Source: a virus. From it: a stretch of 41,985 nt of DNA. The position numbers and the translations under genes are program-made. Positions 34,712 through 41,684 of this stretch are shown here, one piece after another. The number at the start of each line of letters is the position of its first letter. Position 1 is the stretch's first letter. The notes beneath the pieces were generated by a model. It saw only the letters and a list, made by a program, of their open reading frames with translations. It searched no databases and was not told the origin of the DNA. The stretch lies in IMG/VR virus record IMGVR_UViG_3300010149_000043, positions 1 to 41,985 of that record, one strand, 5' to 3'.

Positions 34712-36040
34712 ATGATAATAATAGACGATTCAAAAGAACTAGATTCGTTATTACAAGATATTGAAAATGAGACTCATATATTGGTAGTTCCAATATTAGC
34801 AGATCATCAATTACACCCATCTATCAATAAAATATCATGTATATACGTATATTCAAGCAATGAAATTGAATTCATTGTTCCTATACATCATACTGAACAA
34901 ATAACCGGGTTTAAAGAACATCTAAATAAACTACTCGATCTGGAATCTATATTTGTTCATGACAAAAAGTTATGGTTACAAATGGGCGGAAATAACAATG
35001 TTTATGATGTTAAAACTCTATGGTGGTATACATATGGAGAAGCATACGACGAAAATCATTATTATACATCAGCTCATCATTTTTATTGGAGAAGACATAC
35101 TAATTTGCAGCATGTTAACACAATTGTTCCTTTAATGAAACATATAGAAATGTGTCAAAAAATACGCAAGTATGCAATGCCAATGATAATTAACTCAAAA
35201 TTATCAAACTCATATAAAAAATTTAATAATTATTATCCAAAAATATTTTCTGAAATTGAATCTAACGGGATGCAAACAACTAATTCATTTAAAATGAAAG
35301 AGTTAATTAAAGATGGCCGTGTTTATTCTCAATATCATTATCATACAACTACAGGCCGACCATCTAATGCATTCCGTGGATTTAATTTTGCAGCAATGAA
35401 TAAACAAGATGGCACAAGAGATTCATTTTGTAGTAGATTTGAAAATGGTGCATTAGTTGAATTTGATTTTGATGCATATCATGTAAGATTAATAGCTCAA
35501 TTAATTGGATATGAACTACCCAAAGGATCTATACATACATATTTTGGTAAGTTCTATTTTGGTACAGATTCATTAACATCAGAACAATATGAACAAAGCA
35601 AACAAATAACATTTAGATTGTTATATGGTCATATAGAAAAAGAATTTTTAAAGATTCCATTTTTTAAACAAGTAAATAATTTTGTTTATTCGTTATGGAA
35701 TGATTGGAAAAATAATGGATATATAAAGACTCCAATATTAAAAAGAGTATTAAGTAAAGATAATTTGTCTAACATGAATCAAAATAAATTATTTAATTAT
35801 TATTTACAAGCTTTAGAAACAGAATTTACAGCTACTAGATTAAATAAATTATTATTGTTATTAAAAGAATATAAAACATGTATTATATTATATACATATG
35901 ATTCAGTGTTATTTGATGTTCCAATTCATGAAGCGAAACAAATATTACCAAATATAAAATCATGTTTAGAAGGAAATGATTTCCCTGTTAAATGTAAAGT
36001 AGGCAATATTTATAGTAAAATGAATGACTTCAAGTTATGA
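34712..36040 (+). CDS. Compact, divergent family A DNA polymerase homologue with degenerate exonuclease domain
   Basis: 442 residues with the polymerase landmarks in order. TTTGRPSNAFRGFNF (212-226) is the TGR..S motif. Motif A is FDFDAYHVRLIA (251-262, catalytic D252). Motif B is KQITFRLLYG (297-306), where K297, F301 and Y305-G306 match K758, F762 and Y766-G of Klenow. Q366 falls at the QGTAAD position. Motif C is YTYDSVLFDV (394-403, D397). Substitutions are notable: E710 becomes His257, R754 becomes Tyr293, and the H-D-E of motif C becomes Y-D-S. The N-terminal 150 residues keep the 3'-5' exonuclease outline (SINKISCIYVYS, VHDKKLW, VYDVKTLWWYTYG) but lack its metal ligands. Both polymerase aspartates remain, so activity is possible. 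T4 replicates with a family B enzyme, so this is an accessory. The next gene overlaps by four bases. Confidence 0.78.
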   Translation: MIIIDDSKELDSLLQDIENETHILVVPILADHQLHPSINKISCIYVYSSNEIEFIVPIHHTEQITGFKEHLNKLLDLESIFVHDKKLWLQMGGNNNVYDVKTLWWYTYGEAYDENHYYTSAHHFYWRRHTNLQHVNTIVPLMKHIEMCQKIRKYAMPMIINSKLSNSYKKFNNYYPKIFSEIESNGMQTTNSFKMKELIKDGRVYSQYHYHTTTGRPSNAFRGFNFAAMNKQDGTRDSFCSRFENGALVEFDFDAYHVRLIAQLIGYELPKGSIHTYFGKFYFGTDSLTSEQYEQSKQITFRLLYGHIEKEFLKIPFFKQVNNFVYSLWNDWKNNGYIKTPILKRVLSKDNLSNMNQNKLFNYYLQALETEFTATRLNKLLLLLKEYKTCIILYTYDSVLFDVPIHEAKQILPNIKSCLEGNDFPVKCKVGNIYSKMNDFKL

Positions 36041-37296
36041 TAAATAAAATTATTAATGAATGGACATATCAATTAGATTCTGGATATCCAACCAAAGAAT
36101 CAGATTATGAAGTTCTTCGTACGGTATTACAAGAAACCAATATGCTTTCTGAACAAGAAATTGATCAAACAATTCTGCTAGCAAAAGGATTACATGAACA
36201 ATCACCGGAGCCAACAAATACACAACTTTTATCAGAAGAAGATTTAAGATCAAGATTATCAGATATAAAAATACCTAATGATTTAATTAATATAATCATA
36301 ACTATATATTCCGGATTATCAGATACAGAGAAACAAGAATTTTCAAAAAATTTTAGAATACATTCAATTGAATCATTTATACAACAAGGATATATTCCAT
36401 TTCGAAAATTTTATAATGTTATACCTGGAGGAGCTGCATCTGGAATGGGACGAGGCGAAATGATGACATTATTAGCAGTAAAAGATTCTGGCCCGGGCGG
36501 TACTGAACGACATGATATTGTTATGCCAAATGGCGAATGGGAAGTTAAAGAATTAGAAAAGAAAGCTTTTAGACCAGCAAAAAAAGGAATGGCATTTGCT
36601 TTTGATTTTGCTCCAAAAATTATAAAATTTTATAATGATATTATTGTTCCATTTTCAAACATAGGAGATCCTGGCGATGAATTAATACCAATGGTAGATG
36701 ATAGATCAAAACCATTAGTAAAAAAATTAATTGATATATTAGAATCTAGATTTGAATCCGTTGCTGATATGAATAAAATAAAAAGTGCTAATGAATGGAA
36801 ATTAATGTTATTTCATAATTGGTATGAAGGATTTAAAGAATTAAACCAATTATTTTATCAAACAAAATTTGATAGTGATGTAAAAGATACCAGATTAGTT
36901 GTTAAAACTGGAGGTAAAGAAAAAGCATATTGGATATCAGATACAGATGCTGATAATATTGAATTAAAGTCCGGGGAAGCCGATCCAGCAAATATTAATG
37001 TTGGTGATGCTATTGATAATGTAAATCAAAATATACAAATTTGGTTTAAACGAATTGAATTTAATGAATTTATTAAAAATCCAAGAATTTTTATAGAGGA
37101 ATTAAATACTGTTAAACATACATTTTTTGAAGGAGTATTGGGAGTTATATATTATTTAAAAGAAGCTAAAGATCAAAAACCATATTTATCTAATCCTTCT
37201 GATTTTCTTATATATCAAATTTCACAAGGTCAATATCGTTTTAGATTAACAAATCATAGTGCTAATAATAAACCATATCAATTAGATCAAAATTAG
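36037..37296 (+). CDS. PD-(D/E)XK nuclease-like protein overlapping the polymerase gene
   Basis: 419 residues. GMGRGEMMTLLAV supplies a motif I Glu (E141). HDIVMPNGEWEVKELEK supplies D160 and E169-x-K171, the D-(x)n-E-x-K core of PD-(D/E)XK nucleases, with the usual beta-hairpin between them. A glycine-rich GPGGTERHD precedes it. The N-terminal 110 and C-terminal 230 residues are helical and unrecognised. The gene overlaps the polymerase stop (ATGA), so the two are made together and may act on the same DNA, for example in repair or end processing. A virion-associated or recombination nuclease is also possible. The nuclease fold is inferred from motif spacing only. Confidence 0.68.
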   Translation: MINKIINEWTYQLDSGYPTKESDYEVLRTVLQETNMLSEQEIDQTILLAKGLHEQSPEPTNTQLLSEEDLRSRLSDIKIPNDLINIIITIYSGLSDTEKQEFSKNFRIHSIESFIQQGYIPFRKFYNVIPGGAASGMGRGEMMTLLAVKDSGPGGTERHDIVMPNGEWEVKELEKKAFRPAKKGMAFAFDFAPKIIKFYNDIIVPFSNIGDPGDELIPMVDDRSKPLVKKLIDILESRFESVADMNKIKSANEWKLMLFHNWYEGFKELNQLFYQTKFDSDVKDTRLVVKTGGKEKAYWISDTDADNIELKSGEADPANINVGDAIDNVNQNIQIWFKRIEFNEFIKNPRIFIEELNTVKHTFFEGVLGVIYYLKEAKDQKPYLSNPSDFLIYQISQGQYRFRLTNHSANNKPYQLDQN

Positions 37297-37304
37297 GATA
37301 AGAA

Positions 37305-37688
37305 GTGAGGACACAATTACTGTGCACATTTGCACATAAAAATAACTTAGACATAGTTACAGAATATATCAAACAAAACTTTGAAATTCCAGAAAATAGA
37401 ATATTTGTATTTTCAAACTATGAAAATAGAAATGATTTGTATTGCACATTTAATGCCGAAGACAACGGATATCGTGGTAAAAATACAATATCAATTCACA
37501 GAAAAAAAGAAACTAACACATTGTATACGGTTAATGCATTAAATGAAGTTATCAAAGATTTAAACAATGGTATATTAGATAAAACAATGATATTACCATG
37601 GGAAGCATTTGAAAATTCTTTTTTATTAACTGATGACAATGGTTATCGTAGAGTAGATTTGGTATTTTATAAAAGAATTAATTTTTAA
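37305..37688 (+). CDS. Unknown 127-residue protein
   Basis: Starts at GTG (37305), with AGGATAAGAA upstream, eight bases after the nuclease-like gene. The protein begins RTQLLCTFAHKNNLDIVTEY and continues with NRIFVFSNYENRNDLYCTFNA, an alpha/beta pattern, and ends VDLVFYKRINF. Proteins of this style (QLLCTF.HK..L, then I.FVFSN..N...L..TFN) are, to my memory, found in other T4-like phages near replication or regulatory genes, without assigned function. It is the third gene of the polymerase/nuclease unit and closes it. Confidence 0.75.
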   Translation: MRTQLLCTFAHKNNLDIVTEYIKQNFEIPENRIFVFSNYENRNDLYCTFNAEDNGYRGKNTISIHRKKETNTLYTVNALNEVIKDLNNGILDKTMILPWEAFENSFLLTDDNGYRRVDLVFYKRINF

Positions 37689-38691: not shown

Positions 38692-39462
38692 ATGAGTTTA
38701 GACTTAAACGCCATAAAGGCAAAACTTAACCAATTAACAACAACCAACGACAGAAAAAATAATTATTTCAGACCAGAACCTGGTAAGCAAAGAGTAAGAA
38801 TTGTCCCTTACGTTCACAGAAAAGAAAACCCTTTCCTAGAAATGTATTTCCATTATGATATTGCAAAGAGAAGTATGCTCTCTCCAATAACATTCGGCAA
38901 TGCAGATCCAGTAGTTGAATTTGCTGACAAGTTAAAGAAAACTGGCGATAAGGATGATTGGGTTATGGGTAGAAAAATAGAACCTAAAATGAGAACTTAT
39001 GTTCCTGTTATCGTAAGAGGTAAAGAATCAGAAGGCGTTAAATTTTGGGGATTCGGTAAGACTATTTACTCTGAATTATTATCTATTATAGCAGATCCAG
39101 ATTATGGTGATATTACCGACTTAATGAATGGTAGAGATATCGATGTTGAATTTACCCCATCAGAAGGGCCAGGACAATATCCAAAAACTGCTATTAGAGT
39201 TAAGCCAAATACATCAGCTGCGACTGAAGATAAAGCAATTGCAAAATCAATAATGGATCAACCTAAGATTACTGACTTATTTCCAGAACCAACGTATGAA
39301 GAGTTAGAAAAAGCATTAAATGATTGGATGAATCCAGAAAGTGCTGACTCTGATACTACAACTACAAAAGCAGATACATCTACTAGTCAAACAAGTGCAA
39401 CAGAAACTGTTACTAAAAAAACAGATGTAGCTGAAGCATTCAACGATTTATTTAACGATTAA
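38692..39462 (+). CDS. gp32: Single-stranded DNA-binding protein (gp32-like)
   Basis: 256 residues. After a basic N-terminal arm come RPEPGKQRVRIVPYVHRKEN and a core with RTYVPVIVRGKESEGVKFWG and FGKTIYSELL, matching the OB-fold of gp32 (...R.KT.YW.NILVVKD...G.VFKYRFGKKIW.K). The C-terminus is a Thr/Ser/Asp-rich linker ending AEAFNDLFND, the acidic tip that recruits replication proteins. There are no cysteines at all, so the zinc-binding subdomain of T4 gp32 is missing, replaced by a short loop near residues 60-80. AAAGGATACAAT precedes the ATG. It heads the replication and recombination module. Confidence 0.9.
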   Translation: MSLDLNAIKAKLNQLTTTNDRKNNYFRPEPGKQRVRIVPYVHRKENPFLEMYFHYDIAKRSMLSPITFGNADPVVEFADKLKKTGDKDDWVMGRKIEPKMRTYVPVIVRGKESEGVKFWGFGKTIYSELLSIIADPDYGDITDLMNGRDIDVEFTPSEGPGQYPKTAIRVKPNTSAATEDKAIAKSIMDQPKITDLFPEPTYEELEKALNDWMNPESADSDTTTTKADTSTSQTSATETVTKKTDVAEAFNDLFND

Positions 39463-39477
39463 TAAAGGACCAGTTAT

Positions 39478-40635
39478 ATGGCAAAGAAAAAGAGCGAACT
39501 GGAAGATTCGTTAGCTGCAACTCTTGCAGATAGTATCAATAAACAATTTAAAGGACAAAATTATAAGTCAGCATTTTTCTTAGATGGTGACGAAGATGCT
39601 CCTACAAATGTTAATGAATGGGTATCAACTGGATGTTCAATGTTAGATCTAGCTATTTCAAATCGTGCAAATGGAGGTTTTCCTGTTGGTAGAATTACCG
39701 AAATAACAGGACTAGAAGCTTCGGGTAAATCCTTGTTAGCAGCTCACACCTTAGCAGAGACACAAAAAAGAGGCGGATTAGCAGTATATATTGATACAGA
39801 ATCAGCTAGTAGTGCAGAATTTTTAACAGCAATTGGCGTAGACTTAAAAACTATGCTTTATGTTCCATTAGAAACAATAGAAGAAATATTTGAAACTATT
39901 GAGACTATTGTTGAAAATGTTAGAAAGTCTGATAAAGATAGATTAGTAACTATAGTAGTCGACTCGGTAATGGGTGCATCTACTAAAATAGAAATGGCAA
40001 TGGAATATGATAAGGATGGATATGCAACTTCTAAATCTATTATATTAAGTAAAGCTATGAGAAAAGTTACTAATTGGATAGCTAGAGAAAGAATATGTTT
40101 AATCTTTACTAATCAGTTAAGAACTAAATTAGGCGTATCTTTTGGAGATCCATGGACAACTGCAGGTGGTAAAGCATTACCATTTCACTCATCAGTTAGA
40201 CTTCGTTTGAAAAACACCGGAATGATTAAAGCTAGAGTGAATGGAACAGATCAAGTAGTTGGAAATAAAACCAATGTACATGTTGTGAAAAATAGAATGG
40301 GTCCTCCTAATAGAAAAATTGATTATGAAATATATTATGATAGTGGAATTGACAACTATGGTGGTTGGTTAAATATCATGAAGAATTTTAAATTAGTTTC
40401 TCAATCAGGAGCTTGGTATTCGTTAGACGATGTTGATCCAGATACTGGAGAAGTTCTAGATACTATTAAATTTCAAAGTAAAGATTTTATGGAAAAGGTA
40501 ATACAAAATCCTGAAATGAAAGATAGATTGTATAATAGAATTTGCGAAGCATATATTTTTAAATATCGTGCTGGCATTGATGGCGGTATTGACGATGTAG
40601 TAGTCGACGAAGAAGTTATAAACGAAGAAGGATAA
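39478..40635 (+). CDS. uvsX: RecA-like recombinase (UvsX)
   Basis: 385 residues (T4 UvsX is 391). Walker A is GLEASGKS (78-85), the catalytic Glu is in DTESA (106-110), Walker B is LVTIVVDSV (156-164), TNQL (211-214) is the switch Gln, and TAGGKALPFHSSVRLRL marks the C-terminal end of the ATPase core. It forms filaments on ssDNA, with gp32 as partner, for strand exchange and recombination-dependent replication. The C-terminus is acidic (DGGIDDVVVDEEVINEEG). It starts 15 bases after gp32 and overlaps the next gene by one base (TAATG). Confidence 0.95.
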   Translation: MAKKKSELEDSLAATLADSINKQFKGQNYKSAFFLDGDEDAPTNVNEWVSTGCSMLDLAISNRANGGFPVGRITEITGLEASGKSLLAAHTLAETQKRGGLAVYIDTESASSAEFLTAIGVDLKTMLYVPLETIEEIFETIETIVENVRKSDKDRLVTIVVDSVMGASTKIEMAMEYDKDGYATSKSIILSKAMRKVTNWIARERICLIFTNQLRTKLGVSFGDPWTTAGGKALPFHSSVRLRLKNTGMIKARVNGTDQVVGNKTNVHVVKNRMGPPNRKIDYEIYYDSGIDNYGGWLNIMKNFKLVSQSGAWYSLDDVDPDTGEVLDTIKFQSKDFMEKVIQNPEMKDRLYNRICEAYIFKYRAGIDGGIDDVVVDEEVINEEG

Positions 40636-41684
40636 TGAACAAATACCAAGAATTATTTAAACAACTTCAAAAAGAAAAAGAAAGTATTAATCAGAGTCCT
40701 GACGATCATATTATGATTTTTGACGGACTCAATACTTTTATTAGATCATTTTCAGCAACTCCTTCAACTAACGAAGATGGTGAACATATAGGAGGTATTA
40801 CTGGATTTCTATATAGCATTGGAAAATGTGTTAGAGATTTCAAGCCTTCTAGATGCATTATTGTATTTGATGGAGTTGGTGGATCTAAGCGAAGAAAAAA
40901 GATTTATAAAGATTATAAAGGTAATCGAGCTAATAAAACAAGATTACGAAGACATGATCATCATATGCCTAGCATTGAACATGAGCAAGAAGCTATGAGA
41001 CATCAATTTAGTAGACTAGTATCATATTTAGATGCATTACCAGTTACATTTTTATCTATGGATGGAATTGAAGCAGATGATACTATTGCATATATTACTC
41101 AAATGTATGAAGCAAAAAGTAAAAAAATTACAATTGTATCAACAGATCGTGATTTTTATCAATTAGTTAATAATCAAATTGAAATATGGTCTCCAATTAA
41201 AAAGAAAATGTATGATACAGAACGTATATTAAATGAATTTGGGGTACATCCTAAAAACTATGTTATGTATAGATCATTTACTGGTGATAAATCAGATAAT
41301 ATACCAGGAGTAAATGGAATAGGACCTAAAACATTATTAAAACATGTTCCTAAGTTAAATTTAGAACAAGAATATAAATTAGACACTTTATGGGAAACAT
41401 GTAATGATAAAATAGATGAGTCTAAAACATATAAAAAGATATTAGATAATCAGAATATTATTTCTGACAACTGGAGACTAATGAATCTAAAACTATTAGA
41501 CATTCCAGCTCAAACAAAAAGTAATATTAGAAGAATAATGGAATCACAAATACCAGAATTAGATAAAATAGAATTTAGAAAATTATTTATGGAAGATAAA
41601 ATGTGGTCAGTTATGAAAAATATGCCGGATTGGTTAAACAATACTTGGTTATCATTGAGTGCTTTTGCACAAAAAACAAAATAA
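40635..41684 (+). CDS. rnh: RNase H / 5'-3' exonuclease (FEN-like)
   Basis: 349 residues (T4 Rnh is 305). The FEN/PIN metal ligands are D30 (IMIFDGLN), D79 (IIVFDGVG), E146, D148 and D149 (GIEADDTI), D171 and D173 (STDRDFYQ), and D218/D221 (GDKSDNIPGV), followed by the helix-hairpin-helix GVNGIGPKT. YKGNR (94-98) is also typical. It removes RNA primers from lagging-strand fragments. The C-terminal 100 residues are a helical extension. It starts on the uvsX stop, and the helicase follows after 34 bases. Confidence 0.93.
   Translation: MNKYQELFKQLQKEKESINQSPDDHIMIFDGLNTFIRSFSATPSTNEDGEHIGGITGFLYSIGKCVRDFKPSRCIIVFDGVGGSKRRKKIYKDYKGNRANKTRLRRHDHHMPSIEHEQEAMRHQFSRLVSYLDALPVTFLSMDGIEADDTIAYITQMYEAKSKKITIVSTDRDFYQLVNNQIEIWSPIKKKMYDTERILNEFGVHPKNYVMYRSFTGDKSDNIPGVNGIGPKTLLKHVPKLNLEQEYKLDTLWETCNDKIDESKTYKKILDNQNIISDNWRLMNLKLLDIPAQTKSNIRRIMESQIPELDKIEFRKLFMEDKMWSVMKNMPDWLNNTWLSLSAFAQKTK

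Follow-up and report, generated by a model that had tools for sequence, protein, structure and literature searches.

The window analysed here, a 41,985-bp stretch of viral DNA, encodes at positions 34712-36040 a protein that sequence comparison and structure prediction identify as a small family A DNA polymerase with no recognisable site for proofreading. It belongs to divPolA1, a family named by Yutin et al. 2024 (Virol J 21:200, PMC11348598) in 14 phages including Flavobacterium phage immuto; as described in the text of that paper, divPolA1 is an extra PolA with an intact palm, a short thumb and a dead exonuclease, encoded upstream of replication genes, and is suggested to participate in replication. 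Our literature search found the name elsewhere only in the preprint of the same paper. Since the family was published in 2024, the window gene is a further member of a kind already known: it is homologous to the immuto member, shares the palm, thumb and exonuclease features, and has no defining difference from the family, its own group carrying a family B polymerase (PolB) as well. Metagenomic contigs extend the family from the 14 phages given in the text of that paper to hundreds of members. We propose, with a probability of roughly 0.6 for the parts taken jointly, that divPolA1 is a competent, template-directed, proofreading-free family A polymerase that works besides the main replicase and makes short patches of DNA.

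A compact polymerase resembling the Klenow fragment

The gene is a 442-codon open reading frame with an ATG start:

34712..36040, + strand: divPolA1 gene, 442-aa accessory family A polymerase (PF00476, structural model, homology to immuto)

When the protein was searched against Pfam, DNA_pol_A (PF00476) was the sole domain found (E 2.1e-9, 37.3 bits against a cut-off of 34.3), and the family B polymerase domain PF00136 was not found; PHROG 17, 'DNA polymerase', was matched with E 1.1e-14. A sequence search of the PDB with the single protein gave weak matches to Klenow and Taq. With a profile of 72 relatives the Klenow match reached E 3.4e-7, with motif A, the O-helix and motif C in register, and profile-profile alignment to a PolA set gave 99.7% probability over the whole 442-aa length. 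PF00476 was found in 61 of 72 diverse divPolA1 members (E 0.01).

The AlphaFold2 model (mean pLDDT 94, pTM 0.91) has a palm/fingers polymerase fold and resembles the Klenow fragment end to end, with a TM-score of 0.79, normalised to the query, against Klenow 1kfd in a Foldseek search of the PDB. The 50 PDB matches listed are exclusively family A polymerases, as are the named matches in a viral structure library. Pol theta and Pol nu are among the best Foldseek matches, though Klenow has the higher TM-score. Thus the original prediction of a miniature family A polymerase with its motifs in order, which had called for a structural check of the palm and fingers, is borne out by the Pfam match, the Klenow alignments and the model. 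Compared with Klenow, the window protein has the whole fold and motif order in common, and is shorter by about 160 residues, mainly in the exonuclease domain and thumb. T4 gp43, a family B enzyme, serves T4-like replication of the same type, but has a fold unrelated to that of divPolA1.

An invariant active site with histidine at the steric gate

Residue conservation was scored in 242 distinct full-length sequences, the window's own included. The polymerase motifs lie as follows:

35351..35368, + strand: TGRPSN motif, residues 214-219, with R216 equivalent to Klenow R668 (R216, P217 and N219 in 242/242)
35465..35488, + strand: motif A, D252-F-D-A-Y-H257-V-R259, with the catalytic D252 and His at the Glu710 position (D252 and H257 in 242/242; Klenow alignments)
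35588..35629, + strand: O-helix, Y293-x3-K297-x3-F301-x3-Y305-G306 (K297, F301, Y305 and G306 in 242/242; Y293 in 196/242, otherwise Arg)
35786..35821, + strand: helix K359-x2-N362-Y-x2-Q366-x2-E369-T370, with Q366 equivalent to Klenow Q849 (K359, Q366, E369 and T370 in 242/242)
35891..35905, + strand: motif C, L393-Y-T-Y396-D397, followed by S398, with the catalytic D397 (Y394, Y396 and D397 in 242/242)

Besides H257, fifteen of these positions (R216, P217, N219, D252, K297, F301, Y305, G306, K359, Q366, E369, T370, Y394, Y396 and D397) are identical in all 242 sequences. In Klenow numbering, D252 corresponds to D705, H257 to E710, Y293 to R754, K297 to K758, F301 to F762, R216 to R668, Q366 to Q849, and Y396-D397-S398 to H881-D882-E883. 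The window protein therefore has equivalents of D705 and D882, R668, K758, F762, Y766 and Q849, and departs from Klenow in having His for E710, Tyr for R754, Tyr for H881 and Ser for E883. Alignment to Klenow agrees with the earlier observation that D252, D397 and the K-x3-F-x3-YG of the O-helix are intact; no homologue among the 242 has lost D252 or D397, and K297 is likewise invariant. Template-independent synthesis, which had also been suggested, has nothing in its favour and is unsupported because the template- and dNTP-binding residues R216, K297, F301, Y305 and Q366 are invariant.

The substitutions differ in how far they characterise the family. Tyr before the O-helix Lys, noted in the original prediction, holds for the window protein (Y293) but fails as a family trait: the Arg754 position is Tyr in 196 and Arg in 46 of the 242 sequences, every Arg case falling within the window-like group, and Y293 was accordingly rejected as a divPolA1 signature. 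The Tyr and Ser on either side of the motif C Asp are likewise as first described, but loss of the Glu is not special. divPolA1 has Ser or Ala at the Glu883 position, and its lack of Glu is unremarkable, given that Gln or Ser fills this position in the ordinary phage PolAs examined; the motif C Ser was rejected as a signature too. The change of Glu710 to His, also noted there, extends to the whole family, H257 being His in 242/242 across five groups. The canonical Pol I-type steric-gate Glu of motif A is thus absent from divPolA1; it is present in 60/60 immuto-type PolAs, in three other phage PolAs and in E. coli Pol I. These immuto-type regular PolAs (L094:16587-18917; relatives L343-L422) carry Leu in place of Phe762 in 60/60 cases, and divPolA1 retains Phe. 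The Glu710-to-His change is absent from the text of PMC11348598, figures aside, and the invariance of H257, as read from the alignment, is an addition to the published description. Loss of Glu710 together with frequent loss of Arg754 probably alters nucleotide insertion, making it slower or less selective than in Pol I.

Family A polymerases use Glu710 as a steric gate to keep out ribonucleotides (PMC13228545, PMC7200780), and loss of the carboxylate at this gate in Bst (E658) admits rNMPs (PMC7200780). The His found in every divPolA1 at the position of E710 in Pol I and E658 in Bst could therefore signal relaxed sugar selection, that is, use of rNTPs or the starting or extension of RNA primers, and dnaB lies close downstream, as would suit a primer-making or primer-extending enzyme. 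Yet His is still bulky and could itself serve as the gate, and F301, the partner of the gate, is retained. Moreover, immuto already has a gene of the DnaG primase type (a weak PF08275 match), which also weakens priming as the main role of divPolA1. We regard this explanation as quite improbable.

A degenerate exonuclease domain and a short thumb

The substitutions in the polymerase site are accompanied by changes in the N-terminal third of the protein:

34712..35131, + strand: N-terminal degenerate 3'-5' exonuclease-like domain, residues 1-140 (Klenow profile alignment, model, columns by clade)
35132..35290, + strand: shortened thumb, residues ~141-193, with ~80 Klenow residues missing after it (alignment gap, model helices)

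The exonuclease outline was expected to have lost its metal ligands, and the comparison, which covers D355 and E357 by profile alignment and D424 by secondary structure, agrees. The exo I ligands D355/E357 are replaced by P27/L29; when the strand-loop-helix of the model (around residues 81-90) was aligned by hand to VGQNLKYDRGIL, D424 of exo II probably corresponded to W88, and K422 to K86. At position 88 the residues found are W, F, L, I, M, V, A and C, and an acid occurs in 0/242 sequences. According to the text of PMC11348598, all three exonuclease Asp are replaced in two other divPolA1 members. H60 and K86 are present in 242/242 sequences, and H35, K85 and D99 in nearly all; because its own residues are so strongly conserved, the degenerate domain probably retains a structural or binding role. 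In the thumb, a gap in the profile alignment leaves ~80 Klenow residues without a counterpart, and the model has two long helices.

Persistence of an inactive exonuclease domain has precedents. The large fragments of Taq and Bst are family A polymerases in which the 3'-5' exonuclease domain persists without activity; both keep the steric-gate Glu that divPolA1 does not, and neither is a phage accessory enzyme. The divPolA2 of barbaviruses, as described in the text of PMC11348598, is like divPolA1 an extra divergent PolA beside a PolB, with no active exonuclease; unlike divPolA1, by that description its N-terminal domain is unrelated, its neighbourhood varies and no thumb can be recognised.

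One continuous family under purifying selection

Full-length homologues occur in six of 50,697 public phage records: four Flavobacterium phage immuto records, the uncultured 484-kb phage LR756508 and Microcystis phage Mel-JY01. The immuto protein matches that of the window with tblastn E 2e-50 and 30.7% identity over residues 28-432 (92% of the length). Four scans of IMG/VR returned 212, at least 546, 312 and 109 candidates, and 84,980 cellular genomes gave a single match, in a metagenome bin. When the LR756508 protein was used as the query, no further relatives were found.

The 242 full-length sequences scored for conservation were drawn from these sources. Profile searches and a tree place them in one continuous family of five groups (window-like, the 40% group, immuto-like, Mel-JY01-like and LR756508), of which the window-like, immuto-like and Mel-JY01-like groups each occupy one side of a tree branch. 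Identity between groups is ~25-42%. The Mel-JY01 gene (PP395634.1 50397-51623; L004:11968-13194) is annotated as hypothetical, and its group is missed by Pfam DNA_pol_A; since that group is too diverged for this model, Pfam-based counts of the family are too low. Among 940 close pairs the median dN/dS is 0.09 and the maximum 0.28, indicating purifying selection.

Degeneration of the exonuclease, loss of Glu710 and the divergence between groups, which share 25-31% identity in the search of phage records, are what might be expected if divPolA1 were a polymerase-derived scaffold without catalytic activity. Strong purifying selection would hardly be expected of such a scaffold, nor would the lack of any variation, among 242 sequences, at the two catalytic Asp and all the O-helix contacts, and we consider this explanation highly improbable.

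Replication and recombination genes lie downstream

In the window, terminase, portal and capsid genes are followed by tail genes, divPolA1, and then genes for gp32, UvsX and a 5'-3' exonuclease:

38692..39462, + strand: gp32-like single-strand DNA binding protein (PF08804, E 6e-13)
39478..40635, + strand: UvsX/RecA recombinase (PF00154, E 1e-54; PHROG 97, UvsX-like)
40635..41684, + strand: 5'-3' exonuclease of the Pol I N-domain/RNase H type (PF02739, E 2e-34; PF01367)

Downstream order was counted over 241 loci from five groups, using for each gene the contigs that are sufficiently long. gp32 follows divPolA1 in 122/122, uvsX in 97/97, the 5' exonuclease in 22/22 and dnaB in 18/19. Conversely, a survey seeded with UvsX found divPolA1 in 26 of the 27 contigs that extend 6.5 kb upstream. 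The 27th (L498) has a 127-aa gene at 1968-2366 preceded by a 528-aa ORF and ends before the place of divPolA1; true absence was rejected here, as the contig stops short. Another contig without divPolA1, L496, has only 4.2 kb upstream of UvsX. Gene order in these contigs shows an association of divPolA1 with replication and recombination, not the step at which it acts.

The adjoining uvsX and gp32 genes also bear on whether divPolA1 could be a translesion or mutagenic polymerase, tolerant of lesions through absent proofreading and an altered nucleotide pocket. The missing exonuclease ligands, the invariant H257 and mostly Tyr at position 293, which change the dNTP pocket, and the resemblance to Pol theta and Pol nu, which score below Klenow in TM-score, would all fit. 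However, divPolA1 is fixed in its group, its ties are with core replication genes and not with a repair cassette, and no lesion-bypass loops or insertions are seen in a protein that is shortened, not extended. The error-prone or translesion activity proposed originally is possible as judged from sequence; as an account of what divPolA1 is for, we think it unlikely.

A small companion protein

Two further genes lie between divPolA1 and gp32, the first of them separating divPolA1 from the second:

36037..37296, + strand: 419-aa protein, present in most window-group relatives (no Pfam/PHROG family)
37305..37688, + strand: 127-aa conserved companion protein, no matching known fold (210/211 loci; six phage records; model)

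No homologue of the 419-aa protein was detected in the other divPolA1 groups, and it matched no Pfam or PHROG family. The 127-aa protein, in contrast, accompanies divPolA1 at 210 of the 211 loci that offer 3 kb of space for it, almost invariably on the same strand and downstream, and among the 50,697 phage records it occurs in exactly the same six as divPolA1. It is the better conserved of the pair (similarity between groups ~36-54%, against ~25-42% for divPolA1) and has the motif H-[RQ]-K-[KR]-x-[ST]-N-T-[LIM]-Y-[TS]-[IV]-N-[AS]-L-N. Its model is confident (pLDDT 94.5) and matched no PDB fold under E 0.001; no Pfam family was found, and 45 members gave one weak PHROG match. These patterns make the 127-aa protein a candidate partner of divPolA1. 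Their co-occurrence may instead reflect descent rather than function, because the phages that carry divPolA1 may share ancestry.

One could further imagine divPolA1, with sugar selection changed by its His gate, and the 127-aa protein forming a two-part enzyme that would, for example, extend or replace RNA-containing primers at lagging strands or D-loops and be kept while the main replicase swaps between families A and B. We hold this to be distinctly unlikely.

Relatives also encode a regular polymerase

Of 28 related records, 23 contain a full-size regular polymerase; the remaining five stop short of where it would lie downstream. In the IMG/VR contigs the count is 20 of 25 (17 PolB and 3 PolA), the five without one ending ~3-17 kb downstream of divPolA1. 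The PolB gene lies 12-18.5 kb downstream of divPolA1 in the window-like group and up to ~23 kb downstream in the Mel-JY01-like group. The window itself is a fragment that ends 6 kb downstream of divPolA1, before the expected place of PolB. In immuto the regular enzyme is a PolA of 777 aa with an exonuclease domain; Mel-JY01 has a PolB, and LR756508 has pieces of one. In the gp43-type PolBs of relatives, the exonuclease domain PF03104 is intact in the regular enzymes tested.

In LR756508, divPolA1, a DnaE-type match (in a 575-aa frame) and PolB in two frames were located (47415-48068, 260623-261162, 266583-266900); the PolB is divided between two frames, one of 1022 and one of 625 aa, which an intein or intron may have separated. 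In the record of L323 (G017:C1:53555-55532, - strand), from another divPolA1 phage, PolB occupies adjacent frames of 610 and 306 aa, possibly owing to an intron, intein or frameshift. A family C polymerase as the regular partner was rejected, the DnaE-like match being confined to LR756508.

The idea that divPolA1 stands in for gp43 as the sole replicative polymerase drew on its being the first polymerase found in the window, ahead of the replication genes. It is refuted for the relatives, which carry a gp43-type enzyme with PF03104 (12-23 kb downstream) in addition to divPolA1 or, in the immuto-like case, a full-size PolA, with the remaining records cut off; for divPolA1 in general, it can scarcely hold. 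Four groups pair divPolA1 with a PolB and one with a PolA, the position of divPolA1 being unchanged throughout. This change of companion between groups around a constant divPolA1, as seen in the contig sequences, is new here.

Discussion

How might a small polymerase without proofreading serve phages that already encode a replicase? We favour a role for divPolA1 in making short DNA patches during lagging-strand maturation and recombination, because it consistently neighbours the 5' exonuclease, gp32 and UvsX, and because another enzyme is there for bulk replication. The 5' exonuclease domain is the one that is fused to the polymerase in bacterial Pol I. In our proposal, the 5' exonuclease would remove RNA primers or flaps, UvsX and gp32 would make and protect joint molecules, and divPolA1 would fill the resulting gap or extend the invading 3' end in a D-loop. 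Together with the 5' exonuclease, UvsX and gp32, divPolA1 might thus do the work of a Pol I divided between two genes, leaving bulk copying and any proofreading to the main PolB (or PolA).

divPolA1 occurs together with a normal replicase in a large group of aquatic, T4-like phages. The constancy of divPolA1 through swaps of that replicase suggests that it has a separate, essential job in phage replication, and its invariant steric-gate His poses the question of how rNTPs are discriminated in a naturally small, exonuclease-free polymerase.
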